Position numbers and translations under genes: made by a program. DNA of 64,000 nt from Tetrahymena thermophila SB210 (lineage: Eukaryota > Ciliophora > Oligohymenophorea > Hymenostomatida > Tetrahymenidae): assembly GCF_000189635.1 (NCBI RefSeq), contig NW_002476439.1, positions 119,056 to 183,055 on the forward strand, written 5' to 3'. The notes beneath the pieces are model-generated. The model was not told the DNA's origin. It saw only the letters and a list, made by a program, of their open reading frames with translations, and made no database searches. This document shows positions 1-58,165 of the stretch, piece after piece; within the stretch, counting starts at the first letter, position 1; every line of letters starts with the position of its first letter.

Positions 1-1192
1 ATTTCTAACAAAAACAAATTATTGCAGTGAAGTGTTTTTGAATCAAATTAGACAATAAATGTAAAAACTAAGTCTCTTTTTTGAATAAATTTCATTTGAC
101 AAAATGAATTAAGAAGGTAAAAAATCTATCCGATTTTCAGAATTAAATGATGAAAAAATAAACAGTGTAAATGAATATGTTGAGCATTTGATCTAAATAT
201 AAGATGATCCTTAACACCTCTAATCAGTTAAGAATTCATTTTAAATATCAAATCTACTTAATGTTTTTGATAATAAATTCAATTTTATATCAAATAATTA
301 TCAAGATAACATGATGAGATACTTAATAGAAACATATCCATTTTCAAAAAATATAAACACAGACCAAATGTTCTCTGAATAATAAAGTTTTAATATTTTA
401 AGGAGTCTAGAAACAAATTATATAAAAGAGTTTGTTAAAATAGTAAAAAAGAAATAGAATCTAAATGAAAAACAATAAAACTTTGAAAATAGTTAAACAT
501 ACAGAGTTCAATAAAAAATACTAGAATCATTTATTTTTGAAAAACCAGAATTGGAAAATACCTTAAAACAATTTCCTATCTTTGATTTATTATTGTTAAA
601 AGGGAAGAATATCTTGAATGAATTATAATTTTAGAAAAGCAATATAAATGATGGAAACTAGCGAATAGAAATAGTTAAAAATATGAATAACTAATTTGAA
701 ATTTCTATAAATGAAACAAACTACTAAGGGAGTAAAAAAGATTGGCCTACTAATTGCATTTCTTAGATATTGGAAAGAGATAAAAAATACATATTTAGGA
801 TTTAATTTCAAAAGGGATTTAGTAGTATATTTGTGATAGGATTGATGAAAAATGATAATTTCAATAGCAATTAAGGATGTAATGATAAAATGAGCTACTA
901 TTTTAAATTAGAAAATAATAAGATGAAATACTATGGATAGTATGGAATTGATAAATTTGTAAAAGGAGATAAGACATAATTGCTAGATGAAAATAGTATT
1001 TTAGAGTTGAGAGTTTGGTTAGAAGGATAGTAAGTTGAGGTATTAAATTACCCAGATTATTCCTATTAAGTTGAAATCTAAGATGGATATAAATAAAATC
1101 TATCATAAAAAGATCTAAGTTTATATTTCTATTTAGGTGGGCACTAAGATAAATATATCTTAAAAGAAGCATTAATAGTTGAGTAATTTTGA
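1..1192 (+). CDS. TRIM-like tandem-family protein, copy 1 (3' part only)
   Basis: This is the C-terminal ~397 codons of the first copy of the tandem family; the 5' end lies outside the window. Codons start at position 2, the TGA is at 1190-1192, and TAA/TAG are read as Gln. The segment covers part of the helical middle and the whole C-terminal beta-rich domain, ending ...EALIVEQF. Around positions 10-18 this copy has one more base than copies 2-7 (AACAAAAACAAATT against AACAAAACCAATT). Unless it is compensated upstream, copy 1 is therefore frameshifted there and may be a pseudogene. Copy-specific residues lie at about 731-750 (KKDWP) and 811-836 (FSSIFV). The function is unknown; the family assignment rests only on alignment to the neighbouring copies. 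Confidence 0.75.
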
Positions 1193-1607
1193 AAATTAAA
1201 GTAAGGTTAAATTTAAAATCAAATAAATTAATGAATAAATGATTTAAAAATAATAGTTAAATTTGTTATTTTAAAATTTTACTTTTTATAAAATTTTAAT
1301 TATATTTTTTTAAAAAATTGAGTTTTAATAATAAATTAATATTTTCTTTTAAAATAATTAAGCATATTTGTAATATTATAAAATAAAAAATTAAAAATAT
1401 AATTAATTTCTTAATTTACATATTTATATTCAAATATTATAAAAAAAATTTCTTATAAAAAAAGTAGAATAAAATTATTTCATTAACTAATATACTTTAT
1501 TAATAACAAATCCAGGAATTAAATTCTTAATTTTTCACATCCATAAAAATTTAATTAATACCTGGAAGAGCTATTATATATCTAAGCATATTTAATCAAT
1601 CAAATAA
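1193..1607. other. spacer between copies 1 and 2
   Basis: This short AT-rich spacer has no coding frame. It lacks the 3'-flank block found after the other copies (ending near 'ttcagtaaaatgagtgtaaa'), so it has probably suffered a deletion or replacement. Most of it (about 1325-1575) is a hairpin-ended element that also occurs in reverse orientation at about 10015-10265. The last ~20 bases before the ATG (agcatatttaatcaatcaaa) are shared with the spacers upstream of copies 3, 4 and 5. Confidence 0.7.
1325..1575 (+). repeat. hairpin-ended dispersed element, copy A
   Basis: By eye, this ~250-base stretch aligns with the reverse complement of about 10015-10265. Shared blocks include 'aatattttcttttaaa.taa' near one end and 'aaaaatataattaatt' in the middle. 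At the other end is an imperfect hairpin at 1512-1565, with arms starting ccagg(a/t)att and ending cctgg. The two copies lie in different spacers and in opposite orientation. That points to a small mobile or rearranged element, but no target-site duplication was established. Confidence 0.5.
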
Positions 1608-3540
1608 ATGGATTAATTAGCTCCAAACAGCATTCCTATTCAATAAAATTGCATCTTTCATCCTCAAAATAAACTCGCTTTTATATAAGTTAAGGAAATT
1701 TCATCCCTTCCTAACTCTAACATATTCTAATGTGTTGATTGTTTTGAATAAGATTTACAATTTAGAGGTGCCAATTATATGCTCATCTAAAAAAATATTG
1801 AAAATTCAGAATCTGACTTTCATTATAAATGGCCGCCACTCAATGATTAGCAGATCATTCAGAATATTGATCTGAAAGCTAAGAATCTCAATTCAACATA
1901 AAGCGTCCTCAATTAAATCAATTCTTACTTCACTTAGCTAAAAGATGAAATCATAAAAAAAATCGATGCCTCTTAGAAAAAAGCAATCAATCAAGCTCTC
2001 CAAATGCCTTTTAGCAAAGACTAAATTTTGAAAAGGTATCAAGAAATATCTTAAATTCAAAATTTAAAATCACTACTCATGTAAGACTATAATAAGTCTT
2101 TTGAGCTCTAATAAAAATCATGTAAAGAATTCATTTAGTAAGTAGAATTAAATAAAGATAAAAATACACAACTGCTTTAAGAGTTGCTTAATTAATGCGA
2201 ATAAATTGAACTATTAATTGATTTTGATAGATTAAACAAAAGCAAAGTATTTTTATTAGATTTTTTAGATTAGCTTAACTTTTTTGAAGATTAAACATAA
2301 AGTCAAGTCAGCTCTGAAAATCACTTAAATAATATTATTTTACCATAATAAGATAATAGTAAAATAGATTAATTAATGAATTTAATTTCTAACAAAACCA
2401 ATTATTGCAGTGAAGTGTTTTTGAATCAAATTAGACAATAAATGTAAAAACTAAGTCTCTTTATTGAATAAATTTCATTTGATAAAATGAATTAAGAAGG
2501 TAAAAAAGCTATCCGATTTTCAGAATTAAATGATAAAAAAATAAACAGTATAAATGAATATGTTGAGCATTTAATCAAAATATAAGATGATCCTTAACAC
2601 CTCTAATCAGTTAAGAATTCAGTTTAAATATCAAATCTATTCTATGTACTTGATAACAATTTCAATTTTATCTCAAAAAATTATCCAGATAACTTGATGA
2701 GATACTTAATTGAAACATATCCATTTTCAAAAAATATAAACACAGACCAAATGTTCTCTGAAGAATAAAGCTTTAATATTTTAAGGTGTATAGATACAAA
2801 TTATATAAAAGAGTTTGTTAAAATAGTAAAAAATAAATACAATCTAAGTGAAAACCAATAAAACTTTATTCATATATAATCTGAATTGGAAAATACCTTA
2901 AAACAATTTCCTATCTTTGATTTATTATCATTGTTAAAAGAGAAGTATATTTTGAATGAACTATAATTTTAGAAAAGCAATTTTAATGAATGGAATTTAG
3001 CGAATAGAAATTATTAAAAATATGAATAACAAATTTGAAATTTCTATAAATGAAACTAACTACTAAGGGAGTTGTAAAAATTGTTCTACTTATTGCATTT
3101 CTTAGATATTAGAAAGAGATAAAAAATATATATTTAGGATTTAATTTCAAAAGGGAGCTTATGCTAATTATGGTAGTTCTATGATAGGAATTATGAAAAA
3201 TGAGAATTTCAATAGATAACAGGGAAATTAAGATAAAATGAGCTACCATTTTAGATTATAAAATAATAAGATGAAATACTATGGAGGTTTTGGAATTGAT
3301 AAGTTTGTAAAAGGAGATAAGACATAATTGCTAGATGAAAATTGTACTTTAGAGTTGAGAGTTTGGTTAGAAGGATAGTAAGTTGAGGTATTAAATTACC
3401 CAGATTATTCCTATAAAGTTGAAATCTAAGACGAATATAAATAAAATCTATCATAAAAAGATCTATGTTTATATTTCTATTTACAAGAGAACTAACATAA
3501 ATATATCTTAAAAGAAATATTAATAGTTGAGCAGTTTTGA
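1608..3540 (+). pseudogene. TRIM-like tandem-family copy 2, frameshifted
   Basis: The frame opens with MDQLAPNSIPIQQN like the other copies and keeps the C15-x2-H18...C42-x2-C45 motif and the helical middle. It is 1933 nt long against 1968 for intact copies, so the length is not a multiple of three. An extra base in 'gaatgg' at about 2988-2993 (other copies have 'gatgg') shifts the frame. Translation then ends at TGA 3036-3038 after 476 codons, just before the C-terminal beta-rich domain. The reading frame of that domain is otherwise preserved down to TGA 3538-3540. There is also a net in-frame loss of ~36 nt near 2870-2890. It is either a recent pseudogene or makes a truncated protein without the C-terminal domain; an assembly error is also possible. 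Confidence 0.75.
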
Positions 3541-4447
3541 AAATTAATGTAAGTAAGGATGAAATAAAAATCAAATAAATAAATGAATATAATAATTGTT
3601 AATTATAAATACGATGTAGTAAAAAAATAATAGGCATATTAATATTTTATATTTTAATGATTCAGTAAATTTAGTGAAAAGCAAACTAACTATTAGATAT
3701 GATATAATTTGTTTGTTCTAATTTTTCTCATTATTTTTTTTTTCAAATAAATATTCTAATAATTCATTTTTTTAATAAGCTAAAATATTTATATTAGAAA
3801 TAAAAATTCAATAATATAAATAGATAAGTAACTAAATAGACCATTTAGAATTAAAATAAAATATTTTAAAATTCTTAATATTAGTTTTTTAATTTATGAA
3901 ATATTAAAAATATCTAGAGTTAAATGCCTTTTTTATTTTGGATTGGCATTACTAATGAATATTTATTTAATTTAAAGAAAGTTAGACAAATTTTTAGCTT
4001 AAAAAAAAACTTAGATTAAATTTTCAAAATCTTTGTAAATTTTTTTATAAAAAATTGATGGAATCTTTGAAAATTTGTTTTAATTTGAAATCTGGAGATC
4101 AAGTTGTGAAAAAATAATAAAATTAAAATGTGATATTTGTAAGTATTGAATGTAAATATAGTTGATAGTTTTTAATGTTTTGTATTTAGTTTGATTAGAA
4201 TAAAATTCAATTTGTAAAATATCTTTCTGACTACTCTATTATTTCTTATTTTAAAATATACACTAAATAAATATTCTAATAGATCGATAGATAGATATAA
4301 CATATTTTTATTTTTTATTTGTTTATTTACTTATTTATTTTACTTTCTATTTTCTGATTTTTATTTAATAAATCAAAACAATCTCAAATATTTAAGATTT
4401 TAAGTTTTGTAGCAATAAATCTAAGCATATTTAATCAATCAAATAAA
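3541..4447. other. spacer between copies 2 and 3
   Basis: Noncoding and AT-rich. A block at about 3605-3705 (from 'acgatgtagtaaaaaaataa' to the 'ttcagtaaat...' motif) recurs after copies 3, 4, 5, 6 and 7 at the same distance from the stop codon, so it is probably the duplicated 3' flank or 3' UTR. Simple repeats (gatagata, tatttatttac) lie at about 4280-4340. The promoter-proximal 'aagcatatttaatcaatcaaat' ends at the next ATG. No other feature seen. Confidence 0.6.
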
Positions 4448-6415
4448 ATGGATTAATTAGCTCCAAACAGTATTCCTATTCAATAAAATTGTATTTTTCA
4501 TCCTCAAAATAAACTTGCTTTTATCTAAGTTAATGAAATTTCATCCGTTCCTAACTCTAACATATTCTAATGTGTTGATTGCTTTGAATAAGATTTACAA
4601 TTTAGAGGTGCCAATTACATGCTCATCTAAAAAATTATTGAAAATTCAGAATCAGATTTTCATTATAAATGGCCACCTCTCAATGATTAGCAGATCATTC
4701 AGAATATTCATTTGAAGGCTAAGAATCTCAATTCAACATAAAGCGTTATCAATTAAATCAATTCTTACTTCACTTAGCTAAAAGATGAAATCATTAAAAA
4801 AATAGATGTCTCTTAGAAAAAAGCAATCAATCAAGCTCTTGAAATGCCTTTTGGCAAAGAGTAAATTTTGAAAAGGTATCAAGAAATATCTTAAATTCAA
4901 AACTTAAAATCACTGCTCGTGTAAGACTCGAATAAGTCTTTTGCGCTCTACCAAAAATCATGTAAAGACTTCATTTAGTAAGTAGAGTTAAATAAAGGTA
5001 AAAATACACAGCTTCTTTAAGAGTTGTTAAATCAATGTGATTAAATTTAACAATTGATTGATTTTGACAGATTAAACAAAAGCAAAATATTTTTATTAGA
5101 TTTTTTAGATTAGCTTAACTTTTTTGAAGATTAAACATAAAGTCAAGTGAGATCTGATAATAACTTAAATAATAATATATTATCATAACAAGATAATAGT
5201 AAAATAGATTAATTAATGAAATTAATTTCTAACAAAACCAATTATTGCAGTGAAGAGTTTTTGAATGAAATTAGACAATAAATGTAAAAGCTAAGTCTCT
5301 TTATTGAATAAATTTCATTTGACAAAATGAATCAAGAAGGTAAAAAAGCTATCAGATTTTCAGAATTAAATGATGAAAAAATAAACAGTGTAAATGAATA
5401 TGTTGAGCATTTGATCAAAATATAAGATGATCCTTAGCATCTCTAATCAGTTAAGAATTCATTATAAATATCGAATCTCCTTAATATTCTTGATAACAAA
5501 TTCAATTTTATCACAAATAATTATCGAGATAACTTGATGAGATACTTAGTTGAAACATATCCATTTTCAAAAAATATAAACACAGATCAAATGTTCTCTG
5601 AAGAATAAAGCTTTAATATTTTGAGGAGTTTAGAAACAAATTATATAAAAGAGTTTGTTAAAATAGTAAAAAAGAAATAGAATCTAAATGAAAACCAATA
5701 AAACTTTGAAAATAGTTAAACATACAGCGTTCAATAAAAAATACTAGAATCATTTATTTTTGAAAAACTTGAATTGGAAAATACCTTAAAACAATTTCCT
5801 ATCTTTGATTTATTATTGTTAAAAGGGAAGAATATCTTGAATGAACTATAATTTTAGAAAAGCAATTTACATGATGGAAACTAGCGAATAGAAATAGTTA
5901 AAAATATCAATAACTAATTTGAAATTTCTATAAATGAAACTAACTACTAAGGGAGTAAAAAAAATTGGGTTACTAATTGCATTTCTTAGATATTGAAAAG
6001 AGATAAAAAATATATATTTAGGATTTAATTTCAAAAGGGAAAGGATTGTTATTCTCAAATAGGATTAATGAAAAATGATAATTTCAATAGCCAAGGTGGA
6101 TATGAAGATTAATTGAGCTGCAGTTTTAGATTAGAAAATAATAAGATGAAATACTATGGAGGTTATGGAATTGATAAATTAGTAAAAGGAGATAAGACAT
6201 AATTGCTAGATGAAAATAGTATTTTAGAGTTGAGAGTTTGGTTAGAAGGATAGTAACTTGAGGTATTAAATTACCCAGATTATTCCTATAAAGTTGAAAT
6301 CTAAGATGAATATAAATAAAATCTATCTTAAAAAGATCTATGTTTATATTTTCATTTATTTGTGCACTAACAAAAATATATCTTAAAAGAAGCATTAATA
6401 GTTGAGTAATTTTGA
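4448..6415 (+). CDS. TRIM-like tandem-family protein, copy 3
   Basis: An intact intron-less frame of 656 codons, checked codon by codon, using TAA/TAG for Gln and ending at TGA 6413-6415. The N-terminus has a zinc-ligand-like pattern, C15-x2-H18 and C42-x2-C45, which resembles a degenerate B-box. Residues ~90-300 are Gln/Lys/Leu-rich and probably helical or coiled-coil (LLDFLDQLNFFEDQTQ). Residues ~490-655 are beta-rich and include CISQILKRDKKYIFRIQFQK, IGLMKN and ILELRVWLEGQQ; this could be a SPRY-like sandwich, but that is only an impression. The order B-box, coiled coil, beta-sandwich is the TRIM order. There is no signal peptide or membrane segment, so the protein is probably cytosolic or nuclear. 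The function is unknown. Confidence 0.8.
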
Positions 6416-7154
6416 AAATTAAAGTAAGGATAAATTCAAAATCAAATAAACAAATTAATGAAGGAATTAAAAATAATAGTTGAATTTGTTTATATATTGA
6501 AATATAGAGATTGGAATAATGATTATTAATAATAAATACAATGTAGTGAAAAAATAATAGTCATAAATATATTTTATATTTTATTGATTCAGTAAAATTA
6601 GTGTAAAGTAAACTAACTATTAATTCTATTTTATTTTTTTGTTCTATTTTTTTCATGATTTATTTTTTCAAATAAATATTCTTATTCATTTTTTTAAAAA
6701 GTTAAAATATTTTTATTAGTGTAACTAAATAAATAAATAAATACCTTAATAGACCAGTAACAATTAACATAAAATTAAATAAAATTCTGAAAATGAGTTT
6801 TTTAAGCTTTATTCATTTTTGAATCTTTTTTCTCTTTTTACTTTCATATTTTAAAAATTCAATTATATAAAATATTTTCAAAAATACATTTTTTATATAT
6901 TCTCTATTTAAAATCCAATTTAAATTTCCAATTTCTTAATTAGAATATTAGTTCTTTATTTGAAGTTAACATTAAATATTCAAATCTTTATTTATTTTTA
7001 TTTGTTTATTTACTTATTTCTTTTTTGCTTTCTATGATAATATTTCAATCTTCTGATTTTTATTTAATAAATCAAAACAATTTCAAATATTTAAGATTTT
7101 ATATTTTGTAATAAATAATATATCTAACTAAGCATATTCAATCAATCAAATCAA
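6416..7154. other. spacer between copies 3 and 4
   Basis: An AT-rich spacer without a coding frame. The shared 3'-flank block is at about 6524-6640. The shared upstream block, with the 'tttgcttt...cttctgatttttatttaataaatcaaaacaat' type of sequence seen before copies 3-7, lies at about 7020-7090. Confidence 0.6.
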
Positions 7155-9131
7155 ATGGATTAATTAGCTCCAAATAGTATTCCTATTCAATAAAATTGTA
7201 TCTTTCATCCTTAAAATAAACTTGCCTTTATCTAAGTTAATGAAATTTCATCCCTTCCTAACTCTAACATATTCAAATGTGTTGATTGCTTCGAATAAGA
7301 TTTACAATTTAGAGATGTCAATTACATGCTCATCTAAAAAATTATTGAAAATTCAGAATCTGACTTTCATTATAAATGGCCACCTCTCAATGATTAGCAG
7401 ATTGTTCAAAATATTCATTTGAAGGCTAAGAATCTCAATTCAACATAAAGCGTTCTCAATTAAATAAATTCTTACTTCACTTAGCTAAAAGATGAAATCA
7501 TTAAAAAAATCGATATCGCTTAGAAAAAAGCAATCAATCAAGCTCTTGAAATGCCTTTTGGTAAAGAGTAAATTTTGAAAAGGTATCAAGAAATATCTTA
7601 AATACAAAATTTAAAATCACTGCTCATGTAAGACTAGAATAAATCTTTTGCGCTCTACCAAAAATCGTGTAAAGATTTCATTTAGTAAGTAGAGTTAAAT
7701 AAAGCTAAAAATACTCAGCTTCTTTAAGAGTTGCTCAATCAATGCGATTAAATTTAACAATTAATTGATTTAGACAAATTAAACAAAAGCAAAATATTTT
7801 TATTAGATTTTTTAGATTAGCTTAACTTTTTTGAAGATTAAACATAAAGTCAAGTGAGATCTGATAATCAATTAAATAATAATATGTTACCATAATAAAA
7901 TAATAGTAAAATAGATTAATTAATGAATTTAATTTCTAACAAAACCAATTATTGCAGTGAAGAGTTTTTGAATCAAATTAGACAATAAATGTAAAATCTA
8001 AGATTCTTTTTTGAATAAATTTCATTTGACAAAATGAATCAAGAAGGTAAAAAAGCTATCAGATTTTCAGAATTAAATGATGAAAAAATAAACAATGTAA
8101 ATGAATATATCGAGCATTTGATCAAAATATAAGATGATCCTTAACACCTCTAATCAGTTAAGAATTCAGTTTAAATCTCGAATCTACTCAATGTCTTTGA
8201 TAGCAAATTCAATTTTATCTCAAATAATTATCGAGATAACTTGATGAAATACTTAATTGAAACATATCCATTTTCAAAAAATATAAACACAGACCAAATG
8301 TTCTCTGAAGAATAAAGCTTTAATATTTTGAAGAGTCTAGAAACAAATTATATATAAGAGTTTGTTAGAATAGTAAAAAAGAAATAAAATCTAAATGAAA
8401 ACCAATAAAACTTTGAAAATAGTTAGACATACAGAGCTCAATAAAAAATACTAGAATCATTTAGATTTGAAAAACCAGAATTGGAAAATACCTTAAAACA
8501 ATTTCCCATCTTTGATTTATTATTGTTAAAAGAGAAGAGTATCTTAAATGAACTATAAATTTAGAAAAGCAATTTAGAAGATGGAAACTAGCGAATAGAA
8601 ATAGTTAAAAATATCAATAACTAATTTGAAATTTCTATAAATGAAACTAACTACTAAGAGAGTTGTAAAAATTGTACAACTAATTGCATTTCTTAGATAT
8701 TGGAAAGAGATAAAAAATACATATTTAGAATTTAATTTCTTAAGGAAAAGGGAGAGGATAATTGTGATTTTCTAATAGGATTAATGAAAAATGAGAATTT
8801 CAATAGAGATGTAGGATATAATGATAAAATGAGCTACTATTTTAAATTATAAAATAATAAGATGAAATACTTAGGAGGTTATGGAATTGATAAATTAGTA
8901 AAAGGAGATTTTACATAATTGCTAAATGAAAATAGAATTTTAGAGTTGAGAGTTTGGCTAGAAGGATAGTAACTTGAGGTATTAAATTACCCAGATTATT
9001 CCTAAAAAGTTGAAATCTAAGATTAATATAAATAAAATCTATCTTAAAAAGATCTATGTTTATATTTCTATTTAAGTGGGCACAAACAAAAATATATCTT
9101 AAAAGAAGCATTAATAGTTGATTAATTTTGA
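7155..9131 (+). CDS. TRIM-like tandem-family protein, copy 4
   Basis: An intron-less frame of 659 codons ending at TGA 9129-9131, three codons longer than copies 3, 5, 6 and 7. The extra codons lie in a variable loop of the C-terminal domain (8745-8775, reading FLKEKGEDNCDFLIG where copy 5 has FQKGQNCDFNIG). The C15-x2-H18...C42-x2-C45 motif, helical middle and C-terminal beta-rich domain are all present. This copy ends VDQF rather than VEQF. The length is a multiple of three, and no premature TGA was seen at the positions where copies differ. Confidence 0.78.
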
Positions 9132-9699
9132 AAATTAAAGTGGGGATAAATTAAAAATCAAATAAGCAAATTAATGAATGATTTAAAAATAATATTTGAA
9201 TTTGTATAATTTAATTATAGAGGTTCGAATAATAGTTATTAATAATAAATAGAATGAAGTAAAAAATAATAGGCATAATATGTATTTTATATTTTATTGG
9301 TTCAGTAAAATGAGTGTAAAATTAACTAGCTATTAGGTTTGTTTTAATTATTTTTTTTTCTTAAATTAAAATAAATATTTTAATAAATAAATTTTTTTTA
9401 ATAAGTTAAAATATTTTTAAAATAGATGATAATTCAATAATATAAGAAAAAGTCGATAAGTAAATAAATAACTAAATACCTTAATAGACCACTTTCAATT
9501 AATATAAAATTAGATAAAAATTCTTTATAGTAGTTATTTAATTTATAAATGATTAAAAATATCTAATTTGCAATTTTCAAACCTAATGAATATTTTTCTT
9601 TTAAGAATTTATTTATTTACCTTAATTCTATTTACTTAAAAATCATTAAAATATTTATAAAGATCTTATCTTAAAAATTACTTATCTCAAATGAAATAA

Positions 9700-10030
9700 T
9701 TCTATTGTAAAGGTTTAAACTCTTAATTGTTGATATTAAATTTTATCTAACCTTTTTCTTATTTTTTAAGATTTTAAAGTATTTACTCTGATGAAAATCG
9801 GAAGATTAGCAATTCTTTCATTGATATTCAATTCTGAAATCACAAGATACTTTATTTACATCATCTCATAAATATTAACTTTAAGTTGCCAATTTATGGA
9901 TATTTGTTAACTGTATCCTATATTGCTAGATATTTTTTCCACTAACATGCTCAGCAGCCTAATTATTTATAGTATAAATTAATTTTCTTTTGTGTTATTT
10001 TATTTATAACTAATATTGTAATTAAAATAT
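9700..10030. repeat. spacer repeat, copy in the 4/5 spacer
   Basis: It is alignable with 15680-15960 in the spacer between copies 6 and 7. Shared runs include 'actcttaattgttgatatta' at the start, 'aatttatggat' in the middle, and 'atgctcagca' followed by 'tgtaattaaaatat' at the end. The terminal 'tgtaattaaaatat' motif occurs a third time at about 16411, next to another hairpin. This looks like duplicated noncoding DNA carried with the array. Confidence 0.55.
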
Positions 10031-10265
10031 AGCAATTCCAGGTATTAAATTCTTATGGAAGTGGAGAATTAAGAATTTAATTCCTGGGTTTGCTTTAAAA
10101 TAGATTAATTAATTTAATAATTTTATTTTGTTTTTTAATTTTTTAATTTATTATGTAATTTAAAAAATTAATTATATTTTTAATTTATAATAAATTTATA
10201 TTTAAAATATTATAAACATGCTTAATTACTTTAAAAGAAAATATTATTCGTTTTTGGATTTTTTT
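10015..10265 (-). repeat. hairpin-ended dispersed element, copy B
   Basis: This is the reverse-complement partner of 1325-1575. Its outer end is a strong stem-loop at 10038-10087: 18-base arms ccaggtattaaattctta and taagaatttaattcctgg around a 14-base loop, with one mismatch. No coding capacity is visible. It could be a MITE-like element or a structured noncoding sequence. Confidence 0.55.
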
Positions 10266-10569
10266 TAATCTAATTTTTTTTACCTTCATATTTAAAAAAA
10301 TATCAATTTCAAAAAATAAAATTTTATATTTTCTTTATTCGAAATCTAATTTATATTTCAAATATTATTAGAATATTATTTCTTACTTCAAAATATCCAA
10401 TAAATATTCTTATAGATATAATCTTTATTTATTTACTTTTTTCATTTATACTTTCTATGATAAAATTTCAATTTTTTGATTTTTATTTAATAAATAAAAA
10501 TAATCTCAAAAATTTAAGATTTTAAGTTTTGTAGTAATAAATCTAAGCATATTCAACCAATCAAATCAA

Positions 10570-12537
10570 ATGGATTAATTAGCTCCAAACAGTATTCCTA
10601 TTCAATAAAATTGTATCTTTCATCCTCAAAATAAACTTGCTTTTATCTAAGTTAATGAAATTTCATCCCTACCTAACTCTAACATATTCTAATGTGTTGA
10701 TTGCTTTGAATAAGATTTACAATTTAGAGGTGCCAATTACATGCTCATCTAAAAAATTATTGAAAATTCAGAATCTGATTTTCATTATAAATGGCCACCT
10801 CTCAATGATTAGCAGATCATTCAAAATATTCATCTGAAGGCTAAGAATCTCAATTCAACATAAAGCGTTCTCAATTAAATCAATTCTTACTTCACTTAGC
10901 TAAAAGATGAAATCATTAAAAAGATCGATATCGCTTAGAAAAAAGCAATCAATCAAGCTCTTGAAATGCCTTTTGGTAAAGAGTAAATTTTGAAAAGGTA
11001 TTAAGAAATATCTTAAATTCAAAATTTAAAATCACTGCTCATGTAAGACTAGAATAAATCTTTTGCGCTCTACCAAAAATCGTGTAAAGATTTCATTTAG
11101 TAAGTAGAGTTAAATAAAGCTAAAAATACTCAGCTTCTTTAAGAGTTGCTCAATCAATGCGACTAAATTTAACAATTAATTGATTTTGATAGATTAAACA
11201 AAAGCAAAATATTTTTATTAGATTTTTTAGATTAGCTTAACTTTTTTGAAGATTAAACATAAAATCAAGTGAGTTCTGATAATCACTTAAATAATAATAG
11301 ATTACCATAACAAGATAATAGTAAAATAGATTAATTAATGAAATTAATTTCTAACAAAACTAATTATTGTAGTCAATAGTTTTTGAATGAAATTAGACAA
11401 TAAATGTAAAAGCTAAGTCTCTTTATTGAATAAATTTCATTTGACAAAATGAATGAAGAAGGTAAAAAAGCTATCAGATTTTCAGAATTAAATGATGAAA
11501 AAATAAACAGTGTAAATGAATATGTTGAGCATTTGATCAAAATATAAGATGATCCTTAACACCTCTAATCAGTTAAGAATTCAATTTAAATATCGAATCT
11601 ACTCAATTTCCTTGATAACAAATTCAATTTTATCTCAAATAATTATCGAGATAACTTGATGAGATACTTAATTGAAACATATCCATTTTCAAAAAATATA
11701 AACACAGACCAAATGTTCTCTGAAGAATAAAGCTTTAATATTTTGAGGAGTTTAGAAACAGATTATATAAAAGAGTTTGTTAAAATAGTAAAAAAGAAAT
11801 AGAATCTAAATGAAAACCAATAAAACTTTGAAAATAGTTAAACATACAGAGTGCAAGAAAAAATACTAAAATCATTTAGATTTGAAAAACGTGAATTGGA
11901 AAATACCTTAAAAAAATTTCCTATCTTTGATTTATTATTGTTAAAAGAGAAGAATATTTAGAATGAATTATAATTTTAGAAAAGCAATTTATATGATGGA
12001 AACTAGCGAATAGAAATAGTTAAAAATATGAATAACTAATTTGAAATTTCTATAAATGAAACTAACTACTAAGGGAGTCATAAAAATTATTAAACTAATT
12101 GCATTTCTTAGATATTGAAAAGAGATAAAAAATACATATTTAGGATTTAATTTCAAAAGGGATAGAATTGTGATTTTAATATAGGAATTATGAAAAATGA
12201 GAATTTCAACAGCAAATATGGATTTACAGATAAAATGACCTACTATTTTAAATTAGAAAATAATAAGATGAAATACTAAGGAGATTATGGAATTGATAAA
12301 TGTGTAAAAGGAGATAAGACATAATTGCTAGATGAAAATAGTATTTTAGAGTTGAGAGTTTGGTTAGAAGGATAGTAACTTGAGGTATTAAATTACCCAG
12401 ATTATTCCTATTAAGTTGAAATCTAAGATTATTTGAAATAAAATCTATCTTAAAAAGATCTATGTTTATATTTCGGTTTACTTTAGCACTAACTAAAATA
12501 TATCTTAAAAGAAGCATTAATAGTTGAGTAATTTTGA
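10570..12537 (+). CDS. TRIM-like tandem-family protein, copy 5
   Basis: An intron-less frame of 656 codons ending at TGA 12535-12537. It has the same domain order as copy 3. Copy-specific residues include the C-terminal patches SHKNYQT and GQNCDFN, KYGFTDKM in place of QGGYEDQL, and Cys in GIDKCVKGDK where the other copies have Phe or Leu. Near the start and end the DNA is almost identical to its neighbours, which suggests recent duplication or gene conversion. The function is unknown. Confidence 0.8.
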
Positions 12538-13167
12538 AAATTGGAGGAAGAATAAAATCAAAATCAAAAATATAAATGAATGATTTAAAAATAATAGTTG
12601 AATGAATTTGTTTATAAATTAAATAAAGAGGATCTAATAATAATTATTAATAATAAATACAATAAAGTAAAATAATAATAGGTATAATATGTAATTTATA
12701 TTTTATAGATTGAGTAAAATGAGTGTAAAACTAATCAGCTAGCAATTTCATTTTGTTTTTATTTTTTGATCTACTTTTCTTTTTATATTTTTTTTTTCAA
12801 ATATATTTTTTAATAAATTTATTTTTTTTTTTATTTTTAAATTTTTTTCTTTTTTTACTTTCATATTTAAATAAAAATATTAATTACATAAAATGTTTTC
12901 AAAAAATAAATTTTCTAATTAAAATCTAATTTTAAAATTCATATATCTTTTTATTAAAATATTAGTTCTTATTTTGAAATTAACATTAAATATTCTATTA
13001 CCTTTATTTATTTTTACTTGTTTTTATAATTATTTCTTTTTTGCTTTTATGATAAAATTTCAATCTTCTGATTTTTATTAATAAGTCTAAACAATCTCAA
13101 AAATTTAAGATATTAAGTTTTATAATAAATAATATATCTAAACATACATTTTCAAAAATAAAATAAA
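12538..13167. other. spacer between copies 5 and 6
   Basis: The shortest complete spacer with the shared 3'-flank block (about 12650-12760). The rest is AT-rich with T-runs. The upstream block before copy 6 is nearly identical to the one before copy 7 (taataaataatatatctaaa), which suggests that copies 6 and 7 are each other's closest relatives. Confidence 0.6.
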
Positions 13168-15135
13168 ATGGATTAATTAGCTCTAAATAGTATTCCTATT
13201 CAATAAAATTGTATCTTTCATCCTCAAAATAAACTTGCCTTTATCTAAGTTAATGAAATTTCATCCCTTCCTAACTCTAACATATTCTAATGTGTTGATT
13301 GCTTTGAATAAGATTTACAATTTAGAGGTGCCAATTACATGCTCATCTAAAAAATTATTGAAAATTCAGATTCTGATTTTCATTATAAATGGCCACCTCT
13401 CAATGATTAGCAGATCATTCAGAATATTCATTTGAAGGCTAAGAATCTCAATTCAACATAAAGCGTTCTCAATTAAATCAATTCTTACTTCATTTAGCTA
13501 AAAGATGAAATCATTAAAAAAATAGATATCTCTTAGAAAAAAGCAATCAATCAAGCTCTAGAAATGCCATTTGGTAAAGAGTAAATTTTGAAAAGGTATC
13601 AAGAAATATCTTAAATTCAAAACTTAAAATCACTGCTCATGTAAGACTAGAATAAATCTTTTGCGCTCTACCAAAAATCGTGTAAAGAATTCATTTAGCA
13701 AGTAGAGTTAAATAAAGGCAAAAATACACAGCTGCTTTAAGAGTTACTCAATCAATGCGACTAAATTTAGCAATTGATTGATTTTGACAGATTAAACAAA
13801 AGCAAAATATTTTTATTAGATTTTTTAGATTAGCTTAACTTTTTTGAAGATTAAACATAAAGTCAAGTTATATCTGATAATAACTTAAATAATAATAGAT
13901 TACCATAACAAGATAATAGTAAAATAGATTAATTAATGAAATTAATTTCTAACAAAACCAATTATTGCAGTGAAGAGTTTTTGAATTAAATTAGATAATA
14001 AATGTAAAAACTAAGTCTCTTTTTTGAATAAATTTCATTTGATAAAATGAATCAAGAAGGTAAAAAAGCTATCAGATTTTCAGAATTAAATGATGAAAAA
14101 ATAAACAGTGTAAATGAATATGTTGAGCATTTGATCAAAATATAAGATGATCCTTAACACCTCTAATCAGTTAAAAATTCATTTTAAATATCGAATCTAC
14201 TAAATGTTCTTGATAATAAATTCAATTTTGTATCAAATAACTATAGAGATAACTTGATGAGATATTTAGTTGAAACATATCCATTTTCAAAAAATATAAA
14301 CACAGACGAAATGTTCTCTGAAGAATAAAGCTTTAATATTTTGAGAAGTTTAGAAACAAATTATATAAATAAATTTGTTAAAATAGTAAAAAAGAAATAA
14401 AATCTAAATGAAAACGAATAAAACTTTGAAAATAGTTAAACGTACAGAGTTCAATAAAAAATACTAGAATCATTTATTTTTGAAAAACGAGAATTGGAAA
14501 ATACCTTAAAACAATTTCCTATCTTTGATTTATTATAGTTAAAAGGGAAGAATATCTTGAATTAACTATAATTTTAGAAAAGCAATTTTAGAGATGGAAA
14601 CTAGCGAATAGAAATAGTTAAAAATATCAATAACTAATTCGAAATTTCTATAAATGAAACTAACTACTAAGGGAGGAATGGAAATTGTTCTACTAATTGC
14701 ATTTCTTAGATATTGGAAAGAGATAAAAAATACATATTTAGGATTTAATTTCAAAAGGGAGAGAATTGTGATTTTAATATAGGAATTATGAAAAATGTTA
14801 ATTTCAACAGCAAATATGGATTTCAAGATAAAATGAGCTACTATTTTAGATTAGTAAATAATAAGATGAAATACTTAGGAGGTTATGGAATAGATAAATT
14901 TGTAAAAGGAGATAAGACATAATTGCTAGATGAAAATAGTATTTTAGAGTTGAGAGTTTGGCTAGAAGGATAGTAAGTTGAGGTATTAAATTACCCAGAT
15001 TATTCCTATAAAGTTGAAATCTAAGATGAATATAAATAAAATCTATCTTAAAAAGATCTATGTTTATATTTCAGTTTAAATAGTCACTAACATAAATGTA
15101 TCTTAAAAGAAGCATTAATAGTTGAGTAATTTTGA
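13168..15135 (+). CDS. TRIM-like tandem-family protein, copy 6
   Basis: An intron-less frame of 656 codons ending at TGA 15133-15135. It has the B-box-like motif, helical middle and C-terminal beta-rich domain. The variable patches read GRNGNCST and GENCDFN; the second is close to copy 5 (GQNCDFN) while the first is not. This mosaic pattern is what short gene-conversion tracts would leave. The function is unknown. Confidence 0.8.
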
Positions 15136-15679
15136 AAATTAAAGTAAGGATGAAATACAAAATCAAATAAATAAATGAATGAATGATTTAAAAATAAAAT
15201 GAATTTATTAATAAATTTAAATATAGATGATCAAATAATCATTATTAATAATAAATACAATGAAGTAAAAATAAAATAATAGTCATAGCATGTATTTTAT
15301 ATTTTATTGGTTCAGTAAAATGAGTTAAAAAGAAATTAGCTATTAGGTTTGTTTTAATTTTTTGATCTTATTATTCTCCATAAATTTTTTTAAATATGTT
15401 AAAGTATTTTTATAAAAATGATAATTAAATAATATTAGAAAAGATAGATAAGTAAGTAACTAAATACCTTAATAAACCACTTATAATTAATATAAATTAG
15501 ATAAAATTCTGAATATTAGTTATTTAATTTATGAATTATTAAAAAGATTAAGTTTGGAATTTTATTAGAATTAATTTATTGAATTTCTGTCAACTTAAAA
15601 ATGATTATAAAAATTTTTTAACCTCTTATTTCAAAAATTACTTATTTTAAAGAAATAATTGTATTGTAAATGCATGAAC

Positions 15680-15960
15680 TCTTAATTGTTGATATTAAAT
15701 TTCTCTTCTTAAATTCTAAAGTAATTACTATGATAAATTTGTAAGATGAGTAGTTTTTTCATTAATATTCAACTCTGAATTCATAAGATACTACTTTTAA
15801 TCAATCTCTTAAGTATGAACTTTAAGCTGATAATTTATGGATCTTTTTAGCTTGATATTTTTTCCTCTAATATGCTCAGCAACAAACCTATTACTTTAAA
15901 GGATAAATTTTTTTTTTTTTTCTTATTAAAAGCTAATCCTGTAATTAAAATATCTCCAAT
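15680..15960. repeat. spacer repeat, copy in the 6/7 spacer
   Basis: The diverged partner of 9700-10030, starting 'actcttaattgttgatatta' and ending 'tgtaattaaaatat'. The hairpin-ended element that follows the first copy is absent here, so that element was either inserted there or lost here. Confidence 0.55.
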
Positions 15961-16420
15961 ATTATTTTTCAATCTGAAATATTAAATTTAAATTTTATGC
16001 TTTTAAATTGGTTTTGCTAATTCCATATTTTAATTCTATTTATCATACTATTTTATTGAATTTTAACAAACTTTTGATAAAATATAAGGCTTTTTCTCAA
16101 GTTTTGGGATATTTTTTAAATCATTCTAGTTAAAATAAAATTTACTAAGTTTAATTATTATTGAATGAAAAAAACTTGAATTTCTTTCTTTTTTCCCTTA
16201 ATTCGAGCATATTAATTAAAATCTATGAATTCAAAGTAAATAAATAAGTTTTGAATCAAAAATTAAATTGCACTTATCTACTTTAAATATCATTACATGT
16301 ATATCTTATAAATTTGATAAATAAAAAACTAAAAAAGCATGAAGACTGAATGAATACCTAACATTAAATTTTATTGAATTTCTGCAGGCATACTATTATG
16401 GATTGCTAACTCTGTAATTA

Positions 16421-16462
16421 AAATATCACCAACTGTGTTTTCAGGTACAGAAGGTGATATTT
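16421..16462. other. hairpin next to the spacer repeat motif
   Basis: A perfect 10-base inverted repeat, aaatatcacc ... ggtgatattt. It is followed inward by a 2-by-2 mismatch and a further 4-base pair (ctgt/acag), leaving a 10-base loop. It sits directly after 'tgtaattaa', as the hairpin at 10038-10087 nearly does. Its role is unknown. Confidence 0.45.
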
Positions 16463-16909
16463 CATTTAATTTTTCTGATTTTAAGCTCATTTTACACTTT
16501 CTGTTTTTTAATTTTTTTATGTACCTGTTTTTATTAAATTTTGAAAAAATTTTTTTAGCAATTAATTGATTGATGCCTTTTTTCTATTCATTTTTGAATT
16601 TTTTTCTTTTTTTACTTACATATTTAAATAAAAATATTAATTACATAAAATATTTTCTAATTAAAATCTAATTTAAATTTCAAATATTTTTTATTAAAAT
16701 ATTAGTTCTTATTTAGAAATTAACATTAAATATTCTATTACCTTTATTTATTTTTACTTGTTTATATAATTATTTCTTTTTTGCTTTCTAAGATAAAATT
16801 TCAACCTTCTTATTTTAATTTAATAAGTCTAAAATATCTCAAAAATTTAAGATTTTAAGTTTTATAATAAATAATATATCTAAACATACATTTTCAACAA
16901 TCAAATAAA

Positions 16910-18877
16910 ATGGATTAATTAGCTCAAAATAGTATTCCTATTCAATAAAATTGTATCTTTCATCCTCAAAATAAATTTGCCTTTATCTAAGTTAATGAAA
17001 TTTCATCCCTTCCTAACTCTAACATATTCTAATGTATTGATTGCTTCGAATAAGATTTACAATTTAGAGGTGCCAATTACATGCTCATCTAAAAAATTAT
17101 TGAAAATTCAGAATCTGACTTTCATTATAAGTGGCCACCTCTCAATGATTAGTAGATCATTCAGAATATTGATCTGAAGACTAAGAATCTCAATTCAACA
17201 TAAAGCGTAATCAATTAAATCAATTCTTATTTCACTTAACTAAAAGATGAAATCATTAAAAAAATTGATGTCTCTTAGAAAAGAGCAATCAATCAAGCTC
17301 TTGAAATGCCTTTTAGCAAAGACTAAATTTTGAAAAGGTATCAAGAAATATCTTAAATTCAAAACTTAAAATCACTGCTCATGTAAGACTAGAATAAGTC
17401 TTTTGCGCTCTACCAAAAATCGTGTAAAGAATTCATTCAGCAAGTAGAGTTAAATAAAGGCAAAAATACACAGCTGCTTTAAGAGTTACTCAATCAATGC
17501 GACAAAATTCAACAGCTAATCGATTTTGACAGATTAAACAAAAGTAAAATATTTTTATTAGATTTTTTAGATTAGCTTAACTTTTTTGAAGATTAAACAT
17601 AAAGTCAAGTTATATCTGATAATCACTTAAATAAAAATAGATTACCATAACAAGATAATAGTAAAATAGATTAATTAATGAAATTAATTTCTAACAAAAC
17701 CAATTATTGCAGTGAAGAGTTTTTGTATTAAATTAGACAATAAATGTAAAATCTAAAATTCTTTTTTGAATAAATTTCATTTGACAAAATGTATCAAGAA
17801 GGTAAAAAAGCAATCCGATTTTCAGAATTAAATGATGAAAAAATAAACAGTGTAAATGAATATGTTGAGCATTTGATCAAAATATAAGATGATTCTTAAC
17901 ACCTCTAATCAGTTAAGAATTCATTTTAAATATCGAATCTACTTAATGTTCTTGATAACAAATTCAATTTTATCTCAAATGATTATCGAGATAACTTTAT
18001 AAAATACTTAATTGAAACATATCCTTTTTCAAAAAATATAAACACAGATCAAATGTTCTCTGAAGAATAAAGCTTTAACATTTTGAGGAGTCTAGAAACA
18101 AATGATATAAAAGAGTTTGTTAAAATAGTAAAAAAGAAATAAAATCTAAATGAAAACCAATAAAACTTTGATAATAGTTAAACATACAGAGTTCAATAAA
18201 AAATAATAGATTAATTTATTTTTGAAAAACCTGAATTGGAAAATACCTTAAAATAATTTCCTATCTTTGATTTATTATAGTTAAAAGGGAAGAATATCTT
18301 GAATGAACTATAATTTTAGAAAAGCAATTTTAGAGATGGAAACTAGCGAGTAGAAATAGTTAAAAATATGAATAACTAATTTGAAATAACTATAAATGAA
18401 AATTACTACGAAGGTAGTTATAAAAATTATTCTACTAATTGCATTTCTTAGATATTGGAAAGAGATAAAAAATACATATTTAGGATTTAATTTCAAAAGG
18501 AACTTGATAGTAATTTTATGATAGGAATTATGAAAAATGAAAATTTCAATAACTATTATGGATTTAATGATAAAATGAGCTACTATTTTAGATTAGAAAA
18601 TAATATGATGAAATACTTAGGAGGCTATGGAATTGATAAATTTGTAAAAGGAGATAAGACATAATTGCTAGATGAAAATAGTATTTTAGAGTTGAGAGTT
18701 TGGCTAGAAGGATAGTAACTAGAGGTATTAAGTTACCCAGATTATTCCTATATAGTTGAAATTTCAGATTTTTTTAAATAAAATCTATCTTAAAAAGATC
18801 TATGTTTATATTTTAATTTATTAAGTCACTAAAGTAAATGCATCTTAAAGGAAGCATTAATAGTTGAGTAATTTTGA
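16910..18877 (+). CDS. TRIM-like tandem-family protein, copy 7 (last)
   Basis: An intron-less frame of 656 codons ending at TGA 18875-18877; this is the downstream end of the array. It is the most divergent copy in the C-terminal domain: ENYYEGSYKNYST, FQKELDSNFMIG, NNYYGFNDKM and ISDFFKQNL in places where the others agree. The C15-x2-H18...C42-x2-C45 motif and helical middle are kept. The function is unknown. Confidence 0.8.
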
Positions 18878-54622: not shown

Positions 54623-56848
54623 TCAACTCCTAATTTCGGTATTTAATAACTGATCCTAGAATTCAAAATAGTTTTTAATACCTTCTGGGGTAATCAAATT
54701 ATCTGTTTAAAGAAGCTCAATTGGGAAAAAGAAAGAAAATATTATGCTATAGAAGATATCAGAGACAGAGAGCTTAAGTAGAAGTAAAGAGGAGACGATA
54801 TTGATGAGATTTTGATCATTTACTCTTGAATTTGCACATTTCTCTATAATTCTCTGTGATTTACTAGTGATTTAAGTATTTGTAACCTTGTGACTCTACA
54901 AATTAAACTATCCAGCTATATTTTTGCCTTTAGTGGCATTCTTTTCTTCATTTGTAAAGCGAATGTTGAGCACATCAATAATTATTTGCTTGATTTCCTA
55001 TTAGTTATTGATTTCTGGTAGTCTGCTGGCAATTTATGCAATTTCATCAAGAGCTAATTTTGCAAGTTTTGCTTGTTAGTTTTGTTTCGTTTTATCATCT
55101 TCTTAAATCCATTTAATATTTTTTTCCTTAAGGGATTTACTGATTAAATTGAAATAGAATAAAGGAATCATCAAATCAGTTTATCTGCGAGTATATCTGC
55201 CAAAAATAGTACTTGATTGATCACTGTCTACCATTGAAGCTGTAATTATATGTTAAAGAATAAGCGAGTTATCACTAAGTTCACAACTTTATTAGCAACC
55301 CAAATGAAGCTAATTTAAGCTAGAGATTAATCCACTTCTAAGTACTTTCTTCCAGCAACTAATTTTTTTTTCGTTGTCTATGTGTTTCCTGAATAGCCAA
55401 ATTCCAGCCAACATTGACAAAATACCAGAAACAACGAATCCAGCAATTCCAAATAGCGCTACTCCTCTCGTTCCTACTACAAATGTCGAATTCTCAGCGA
55501 TTAAGGCGCCAAACATTCCACTCACCACTGCCGAACCACCAATTGCATACATACCTAAACCTATATATTTGCCTGAAATTTTATCAGATCTATCCTGAAA
55601 GTTAAATTCAATAGGCTTCATACCTTCTAACTCAGTGTATTACTTTACCAATTCATCAGAGACACTATCATTTTATTCATTTTTATTTATTTTTAAGATT
55701 TCAGTAAGTCCTTAAGCAAATTATTTCCTCCATTATTTTTCTAACTCTTTTATTTTGCTTGCAAACTTGCTCTTTGTATTAAATTGTTTTGCTTAGGAAA
55801 TAATCTAGAAGATAGAAATGGAGGAGTATTTACCTTTTGGAATACAATTTAACAATTCCTTTATTTCTTATTCTAAAATTGGTTGTTGTTCTTTATTCAT
55901 TTTATTGACTTATTCAATTACATAGTTCTTTTAATGTAACTGAAGATTGATGATCTCTGCAAAATGCTTTTTTTCACTGAGCCCTCTACTTTTGAGGATC
56001 TACACACTGCCAATTAATACTTCATAAAGGCTTCTACAACTTTAATCCCTGTTAAAGCTTTCTGTATTTTAGTGGATTGAAGAAAATTTCATTTATTTGA
56101 TATCTTCACATATTCCACGAAGCTAAGCTAGTGACTCTTAATCAATTTCTATGAGATATTTTCTGTTTTTATAATCGTTTTCATAATCAATCTTTTTAAA
56201 TTTAGAAATAAAATAAGATTTTTAGAAAATTGGATAATGCTTGCTTTTTGTTGCATTTAGGTTTCCTTGCTTGTTTAATAGTTCAATGAAGTTAGATAGG
56301 ATTCCCTTTTTTTTCAAGTAATTACGATCTTATTTATGACGATCTTCAATATCAACAGCCTCTAGAAATTTAATAAAAGGCTTCTTCACTCTTTCGTCAG
56401 TTGAAATATATATAGTGATAGTTGACAAACGAGCGATTTATGCTATCAGGAGATAAAGCTTATCAATATAGTTTTCAGATAAATCTTATTAGGCATTCTC
56501 AAATCCTTCACAGTCAAATAAAATTAAATCTGTATTTTCATCAAGACTTGTAATAAAATATTAAATTCCAATTGTTCCATTGCTTGATCCAGCGTAAGAA
56601 TGGAAAATATTATAAGGCTTTTTCGTGAATTATGATGTGATAAGTTCAATAATTGATGACTTCCCATTACCAGTTTCTCCGACAACTGTCACTATTTTGA
56701 TTTTCTTAGTAGCATTTACTAATAAATGTGAAATAAGGTATCCATCTTTAAAACTAATATCTTTCCCATCATTTACTAGAGAGCATAACTCCCTTACATG
56801 AATATCATCCTCTTAGTAGAATGTGATGGAATGATTAGAATTTCCCAT
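54623..56848 (-). CDS. membrane-anchored P-loop GTPase, 741 aa
   Basis: A single intron-less frame of 742 codons, with ATG at 56848-56846 and TGA at 54625-54623. It begins MGNSNHS, a possible N-myristoylation signal. The GTPase domain shows G1 G57-E-T-G-N-G62-K63-S64-S65, a candidate G2 Thr92 (GTIGI) and G3 D112-C-E-G115-F. G4 is not obvious. A helical region follows (~230-410), then a hairpin of two hydrophobic segments at ~425-445 and ~455-480 (GGSAVVSGMFGALIA; GFVVSGILSMLAGIWLF), then another helical region. A G domain plus membrane hairpin recalls atlastin/GBP- or AIG1-like GTPases that act on membranes; which of these is not clear. A decayed duplicate lies 1.1 kb away. Confidence 0.8.
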
Positions 56849-58165
56849 TTAAGCTCTTTTTTTTTTTTGGAGGGAATTTACTTTTTTATTTAGGTTTTTT
56901 ATTATTTAGATTATAATGATTAATAAATCAATTTGGTTTTAAATGACTAAATTTGATAGTCTCAGAATAAGATAAATCACTTGGGTATGCTGAAAAAAAT
57001 TTTTTAGGTAGGTTTATTAGAATATTTAGTAAAAATCTTTATTCTAACAACTTTTAAATTATTGATGAAAGCAAGCAAATTATTAAGTTTATGAATATTA
57101 GATGTTAGAATATGACATGATTTTTCTATTTCAATTCACAAGGAAAAAAAAAAAAATATTTACAGAAAACACTTTTATTCAAAAATCTTTTAACATTTTT
57201 GAGCACTAATATTACATACCAAAAGAATTTTTATCTAAAAAGAATGATTAACAAGTATGAATGAAAGTAATAAAGTTTTAGAAGTAATACTAGGTTTGAG
57301 TTTGGATGTATTGATATCGCAATTGAAAATATAGTCCTCTTTCTCTATCTTGTTGCCCAATTTAAACAGGGCCTGAAATTTTACACAGATGAATTGTATC
57401 TTGCTCTTTACTCTGGTGTAATATTATGTCTGGATTTGTATTGTAGATGGCCTTTGTCTGTAAAATTTATGTGGATTGTGAGGAGAAACATGAAAAACTT
57501 CTCATTTTGAGGGTTATCCTTATAATTTTTCTCCAGACGGAATTATTCTTGGTTGATATAAGGAGTTATTTTGGCAGAACAGTAGTAGGAGTGTCATTTA
57601 TTCAATAATTGCCTTATTTTTAGGTATACTTTGTTAATGAATGAGACCTTATGGTATTTAGAAAAGTTTATTATTGAGTGATCTAAGTTGAATAATAAAT
57701 AAACGAAGTAATTAACACATTAAATTTAATAATAATATTTAATAATCTTGAACTTAATATTTTAAAAATGTTTAAAGATTCTAAAACCTTTTATAAAAAA
57801 GGGGTTATTTTTAAAAGTTTATTAATATTGATTGATCTAAATATAAAATAGTTAATAAATAAATAAATCAATCAATCTATTTAATTACAATAGACACCAA
57901 AAAATAATTAATGATATAGAGAAGATTTATAAATAATTTACATTTTTATTAAGGTTTTAATTGAAATGAATAATTTAGATTTTATCAGAAATAAATTTAT
58001 AAATAAATATAAACAAATATTGATAGTGACGCTAATATAAAATAATAAAGAGTGTCTCCATCAGTCAATTGCTTTAAATGGCTCTTTCTGTTTTATAAAA
58101 ATTATAATCAAATATTAAAAAATAGCTTTTATAGAACTGAATAATTAACTATAGAATTACTTGAA
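56849..58165. other. divergent intergenic region
   Basis: It lies between the start of the minus-strand GTPase and the start of the plus-strand vWA gene, so it holds both promoters. Most is AT-rich, with a poly-T/poly-A run near 56865. The piece 57260-57600 looks coding-like (see separate entry). Confidence 0.5.
57260..57600. other. coding-like fragment, possible gene remnant
   Basis: It is richer in G and C than its surroundings and open on both strands with ciliate codons. Minus-strand reading gives segments such as GPVQIGQQDRERGLYFQ and NTNPDIILHQSKEQD; plus-strand reading gives KQGLKFYTDELYLALYSG. No start, splice sites or known domain could be settled. It could be a relic exon or a small unannotated gene. 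Confidence 0.25.

Follow-up and report, generated by a model that had tools for sequence, protein, structure and literature searches.

How free-living protists recognise intracellular invaders is, to our knowledge, largely open, and a tandem gene array of Tetrahymena thermophila SB210 raises the question of whether a ciliate has built a recognition system of its own. The array opens a window of 64,000 nucleotides (C111:119056-183055, forward strand of contig NW_002476439.1), and the genome searched with it comprises 101 Mb in 445 contigs. An earlier note on this DNA described gene products with a B-box-like motif, a helical middle and a beta-rich C-terminal domain, compared them with the TRIM proteins of animals, and proposed an independent recognition system. 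That proposal gains support from diversifying selection, which we find concentrated in the C-terminal domain, predicted to be SPRY-like. We read the array as a recognition repertoire of SPRY type that expanded independently, is probably cytosolic and resembles the finTRIMs of fish, and put the probability of this reading at roughly 0.58.

Diversifying selection falls on the C-terminal domain

Residues are numbered here by copy 3 of the window (4448..6415, + strand), an intact gene of 655 residues. The window genes belong to array A, which reaches upstream on contig C111 from 70583 and holds 18 places that match the C-terminal domain (C-domain places); a separate array on contig C24 also holds 18. 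From each array, 13 of the 18 places entered the selection analysis. Those left out of array A were window copies 1 and 2, one copy beside a gap, one broken copy and the copy at 73149, which was reported in two pieces, whilst of the C24 places three were not fetched and two were dropped (one starts with MDT; one starts with MDR and has a shorter frame). The counting method NG86, a FUBAR-like grid with kappa fixed, and the site models M1a and M2a were all run in our own implementations.

Across the 13 intact copies of array A, the ratio of nonsynonymous to synonymous substitution rates (dN/dS) was 0.26 in residues 1–60, 0.15 in residues 61–235, 0.32 in residues 259–470 and 0.96 in residues 471–655, the C-terminal domain. 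The same regions gave 0.12, 0.20, 0.30 and 0.95 in the 13 copies of C24, 0.13, 0.32, 0.26 and 1.24 in five copies on contig C73, and 0.20, 0.20, 0.39 and 0.63 in the six copies of cluster B, a second group on C111. The FUBAR-like grid placed 20 sites at a posterior of at least 0.9, of which 15 lie in the C-terminal domain (p = 1.7e-5). In this domain M2a was favoured over M1a both in array A (twice the log-likelihood difference, 2dL, 138.5, p = 8e-31; 12% of sites at omega 6.4) and in C24 (2dL 96.0, p = 1e-21; 9% of sites at omega 6.2), and in residues 1–258 it brought no gain (2dL 1.9 in A and 0.0 in C24). Purifying selection acts on the N-terminal platform, and diversifying selection on roughly one in ten sites of the C-terminal sandwich, gathered in a few blocks. 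As in the finTRIMs, positive selection is concentrated in the presumed binding domain rather than in the platform, with the pattern weaker in C24 (at the cross-defined columns described below).

The same positions vary in separate arrays

Six blocks of copy 3 are hypervariable, all on the + strand: residues 503–508 (window 5954..5971), 531–537 (6038..6058), 548–553 (6089..6106), 570–573 (6155..6166), 619–622 (6302..6313) and 636–642 (6353..6373). The evidence for them comes from the regional dN/dS values, the variability of columns between arrays, cross-defined columns and the comparison of M1a with M2a. The same C-domain columns vary across separate arrays, with Spearman coefficients of 0.22–0.50 over six array pairs (A/C24 0.46, A/C73 0.42, C24/C73 0.50, A/B 0.42, B/C24 0.31 and B/C73 0.22; all p < 0.003). 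For the cross-defined test, columns were defined in one array and dN/dS was measured in another, which avoids choosing sites by their own variability. Columns defined in C24 gave a dN/dS of 2.22 in array A (confidence interval, CI, 1.57–3.46), against 0.59 in the rest of its C domain. Those defined in A gave 2.34 in C73 (CI 1.32–3.84), and those from C24 gave 1.93 in C73 (no CI) and 1.49 in cluster B (CI 1.04–2.51). A tree-free count over the closest disjoint pairs of array A put the ratio of nonsynonymous to synonymous differences (pN/pS) at 2.28 at cross-defined columns (p = 8e-4) and at 0.26 in residues 1–470.

Paralogues of array A differ at 79% of the most variable C-domain positions and at 12% of the other C-domain columns, a contrast that is partly by construction because variability itself was the basis for choosing the columns. 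The difference at these columns does not track divergence over residues 1–470 (rho 0.11, p = 0.35); the two copies with the smallest synonymous distance still differ at 87% of them. As the blocks diversify under selection, each analysed copy of the two large arrays has its own set of variable residues, unique in 13 of 13 copies of A and 13 of 13 of C24 at largely the same columns. Of the variable residues of A, 16% are tyrosine, compared with 7% in the remainder of the domain.

Several results weigh against reading the array as a recognition repertoire. The linker of array A, residues 236–258, is also loose (dN/dS 0.73), and in residues 259–470 of A M2a improved on M1a (2dL 22.2) with two selected sites. 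Recombination between copies was handled by separate trees per region only. Columns defined in A reached only 1.39 in cluster B (CI 0.97–1.99) and only 1.14 in C24 (CI 0.93–1.45), and the closest disjoint pairs of C24 gave a pN/pS of 1.27 (p = 0.20; 0.30 in residues 1–470). The hypervariable sites lie mostly outside the strand cores of the structure model discussed below, a depletion that was not significant in four versions of the test (p 0.20–0.76). From the cross-defined and closest-pair results, therefore, the signal is strong in array A and present in C73, and in C24 it is backed by M2a and not by the cross-defined tests.

The same blocks could arise through relaxed constraint, in which redundant copies drift and the blocks merely tolerate change. 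Two of the 18 array A copies are visibly broken, as drift would have it, and the C24 rate at cross-defined columns is not significantly above 1. On the other side stand the cross-defined rate of array A, whose interval lies wholly above 1 whilst the remaining domain stays below it, and the preference for M2a in both arrays. We consider relaxed constraint quite unlikely overall, and for array A it is already largely refuted.

A predicted SPRY/B30.2-like fold

Residues 471–655 of copy 3 (window 5858..6412, + strand) are beta-rich in the predicted structure, and the model and structural searches with it point to a SPRY/B30.2-like beta-sandwich. The earlier note would have abandoned its comparison had this fold proved unrelated to SPRY; that outcome did not come about, in that all 50 of the VIA-align matches listed are SPRY/B30.2 structures, and by predicted structure the domain qualifies as a SPRY beta-sandwich of the B30.2 type. 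The likeness is one of predicted structure. The domain has no Pfam match, the SPRY profile matched none of 22 members at E-values up to 1, and the six genomic places picked out by PF00622 all lie outside the arrays. A PDB sequence-profile search with 48 C domains returned a best E-value of 0.17, to an unrelated protein. An hhalign comparison with a small SPRY alignment (8 pieces) was not significant (P 0.2), its local alignment pairing strands that had been matched by eye.

The SPRY assignment has its own counter-evidence, in that it rests on one of five models, the other four having predicted local distance difference test (pLDDT) scores of 45–60, and that VIA-align merely re-ranks the candidates of Foldseek. 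Foldseek itself puts a lectin first and ranks lectins of similar sandwich as high as SPRY domains. This ranking speaks for a lectin-like, concanavalin-A-type sandwich that would sort prey or surface glycans, with variable blocks adapted to different sugars: legume lectins, Emp46p, laminarinase and further proteins that are not SPRY take up 27 of the best 50 Foldseek rows, the top row among them, and their E-values are similar to those of the SPRY rows. Such a lectin is at odds with the uniformly SPRY/B30.2 matches listed by VIA-align and with the cytosolic appearance of the proteins (see below), and we judge it unlikely.

A one-site zinc-type module and no RING

Fourteen residues of the protein precede its only zinc-type site, the motif C15-x2-H18...C42-x2-C45 (window 4490..4582, + strand), a putative single zinc site in the constant part. 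All four residues are kept in 48 of 48 aligned family genes, and none of the other Cys or His residues of copy 3 within residues 1–100 is conserved among these genes. The site is followed by residues 61–235 (window 4628..5152, + strand; the region of dN/dS 0.15), conserved and probably helical with a WPP motif at 75–77, and by residues 259–470 (window 5222..5857, + strand; dN/dS 0.32), a conserved middle with an SNKxN motif. Among 33 aligned genes the invariant residues include C15, H18, C42, C45, W75-P76-P77 and S261-N262-K263, and N265 and C267 are likewise kept in all 33. Of the domain order first ascribed to the genes, the two ends stand, by the conserved motif and by the C-terminal model respectively. 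The helical middle appears only in an N-terminal model of pLDDT 38, too poor to trust, which places helices after the zinc-type site; in a crude heptad count for a coiled coil over residues 80–235, the observed value was reached by 281 of 300 shuffles.

Might these be TRIM proteins proper, ciliate E3 ligases of the TRIM type with a degenerate B-box? The order of zinc-type site, probable helices and SPRY-like domain would suit them, and by eye the retained pairs resemble pairs 1 and 3 among the ligands of B-boxes from this same genome. However, Pfam RING matched none of six copies or 22 members, and there is no second set of four ligands. The B-box profile PF00643 matches 26 places of the genome, and the arrays are not among them. 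In 12 of those 26 B-boxes that we aligned, seven ligand positions are invariant and the eighth is C or D in 11 of 12, whereas the family retains C-x2-H and C-x2-C alone, separated by 23 residues in copy 3. The sole profile alignment to the B-boxes, by hhalign, covered only 8 columns at a probability of 3% and paired C42/C45 with ligand pair 2, not 3. A PDB sequence-profile search with 32 N-terminal pieces gave a best E-value of 0.31, to an unrelated protein.

Because four ligands are kept against the eight of a B-box, the N-terminal module is, judged by its sequence, a one-site zinc-type module, which may be of B-box or of zinc-ribbon kind. The comparison with TRIM proteins thus survives in the SPRY-like C-terminal fold and fails on the RING and on the number of ligands, B-box homology and a coiled coil being putative; TRIM membership is not supported by these sequences, and a TRIM family proper is very unlikely. 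Pfam matches on the full proteins to Spore_III_AB, Peptidase_M6 and the like fell below the cut-off and were set aside as chance.

Copies in the window and across the genome

The window is readable with the ciliate code (code 6, in which TAA and TAG encode Gln) and has a GC content of about 18–28%. Its seven copies do run head to tail, all on the + strand, and comprise five intact single-frame genes of 655–658 codons, one copy cut by the window start and one that is broken. Copy 1 (2..1192) is represented by its C-terminal 396 codons, and the sequence directly upstream of the window, C111:113852-119055, reads N. Copy 2 (1608..3540) carries a frame shift and a short deletion and is probably a pseudogene. 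Besides copy 3, the intact copies are copy 4 (7155..9131, 658 residues) and, each of 655 residues, copy 5 (10570..12537), copy 6 (13168..15135) and copy 7 (16910..18877). Identity to copy 3 is 87–91% for copies 4–7 and for what can be read of copy 1, and 89% for the initial part of copy 2.

The description of the copies as intronless holds, because each intact copy reads as one uninterrupted frame under code 6. That most neighbours have introns was checked at one neighbour, indirectly: a SIR2-like open frame at window 60875-61855 (− strand) carries only positions 97–176, the second half, of a 180-position Pfam profile, which suggests an upstream exon behind an intron. Elsewhere in the window, an open frame of 831 residues at 54626-57118 (− strand) contains a GTP-binding-like stretch (MMR_HSR1, E-value 0.009, under the Pfam cut-off).

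A count of at least seven copies understated the family. Array A has 18 places, and two stretches reading N could hide further copies; genome-wide, these places included, at least 91 match a C domain from C24 and at least 85 the one from C233. Cluster B lies downstream of the window at C111:190476-207312 (six members, L033-L036, L038 and L039) and is more diverged, at about 38–39% identity to the window array. The C24 array occupies C24:114355-161366 (L041, L042 and L050-L062), and further groups lie on C73 (5 places), C227 (4) and C180 (6), and also on C5, C41, C54 and C112. Ten other loci, most of them on larger contigs, hold 11 frames in which we read by eye C-x2-H...C-x2-C and the C domain, 10 of them with a W/F-P-P motif.

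Diverged members on C112, C145, C277, C214, C17, C39, C279, C114 and C123 (L067-L076) still carry the zinc-type motif together with the C domain, some of them much shorter (about 400 residues on C112), and are possibly older members of the family. Repeats of GGGGTT are abundant in the genome, with long runs, among the matches listed, at the start of C4 and at 465.6–465.9 kb of C4; these would fit Tetrahymena-type telomeres and a macronuclear assembly. At nine contig ends the telomere repeat was absent from eight and one reads N, and we claim no subtelomeric position. Within their initial 200 bases, C5 and C41 (L085 and L084) appear, by eye, to have a sequence in common, in opposite orientation, and the array contigs may therefore break at a common repeat.

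A candidate cytosolic repertoire

In the reading that we prefer, a large single-exon family would join a conserved platform, in which a single C/H zinc-type site is accompanied by a stretch that is probably helical, to a SPRY/B30.2-like sandwich. The hypervariable blocks would form a binding surface for ever-changing ligands, most likely non-self proteins inside the cell, such as those of viruses, of mobile elements, or of bacteria that live in the cell or are ingested. The constant half may recruit a shared response, as has been proposed for fish finTRIM, with tandem duplication supplying new receptors. A cytosolic placement is suggested because the sequences have no membrane-span-like stretches: across 48 genes the most hydrophobic 19-residue segment scored 1.39, below the level of a membrane span. 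A crude test saw no secretion signal in the same 48 genes, although in one of them (C41b) a hydrophobic stretch lies close to the beginning.

These features also bear on intraspecific recognition, in which the variable surface would tell self from non-self partners in mating, allorecognition or compatibility and would have nothing to do with pathogens. Diversification of one domain and expansion in arrays fit any fast co-evolving recognition and not defence alone. The lack of a membrane-span-like stretch argues against a cell-surface receptor, an objection softened by the fact that cytosolic allorecognition is known elsewhere. We hold intraspecific recognition to be rather unlikely. Pathogen recognition is the most likely use, with self recognition and glycan binding as live rivals.

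A fuller statement would be that this ciliate has independently evolved a germline-encoded cytosolic repertoire of dozens of tandem genes, each copy pairing the constant half with its own binding surface of positively selected SPRY-type blocks. Such a repertoire would have converged on the finTRIMs, and in its logic on variable immune receptors, by way of a new N-terminal module that replaces RING and B-box. We offer this tentatively, at somewhat less than even odds. If true, it would extend the use of the SPRY scaffold for diversified recognition beyond the animals. Several arrays of this one genome combine a constant platform with hypervariable blocks, and the family thereby makes invader recognition in a protist testable, with named sites and with the platform as a built-in negative control; such ciliates can also be cultured and transformed.

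Comparison with known systems

In the open-access literature, judged by titles and the starts of abstracts, we found no paper on this ciliate family; most subscription papers lie outside that coverage. The SPRYSEC proteins of nematodes are secreted effectors of a plant parasite, whereas the ciliate proteins have no visible secretion signal by the crude test. The two share SPRY proteins as their theme, and the SPRYSEC paper often mentions positive selection (PMC2727447). The zebrafish NLR-B30.2 family is likewise very large (nearly 400), and its B30.2 domain is treated at length, but its platform is of NACHT and LRR type, not a zinc-helical module (PMC4852459). Among ciliates there are the leucine-rich repeat (LRR) expansions of Tetrahymena, which are also young, tandemly duplicated and rapidly evolving genes with proposed recognition roles; the young LRR genes consist of tandem 90-bp exons, whereas the SPRY-like family is single-exon, and a word search of the main text found neither B-box nor SPRY and one zinc finger, of a retrotransposon (PMC6564038).

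Alike in pattern are the finTRIMs, a large duplicated fish family with hypervariable, positively selected positions in the loops of a C-terminal B30.2 domain. In the finTRIM paper these positions are reported as congruent with those of TRIM5alpha and are read as binding diverse ligands (PMC2657112). In TRIM5alpha, too, the B30.2 loops are a fast-evolving, virus-specific recognition surface, but there the diversity lies between primate species, whereas in the ciliate it lies among paralogues of one genome and an antiviral role is putative (via PMC2657112). The finTRIMs differ in having a RING, B-boxes and a B30.2 domain recognisable by sequence, where the ciliate proteins have a single C/H site, lack a RING and show no match to SPRY at the level of sequence. 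With a constant platform, a variable presumed surface and many copies in common, we therefore infer that the ciliate family may work on the same principle as the finTRIMs.

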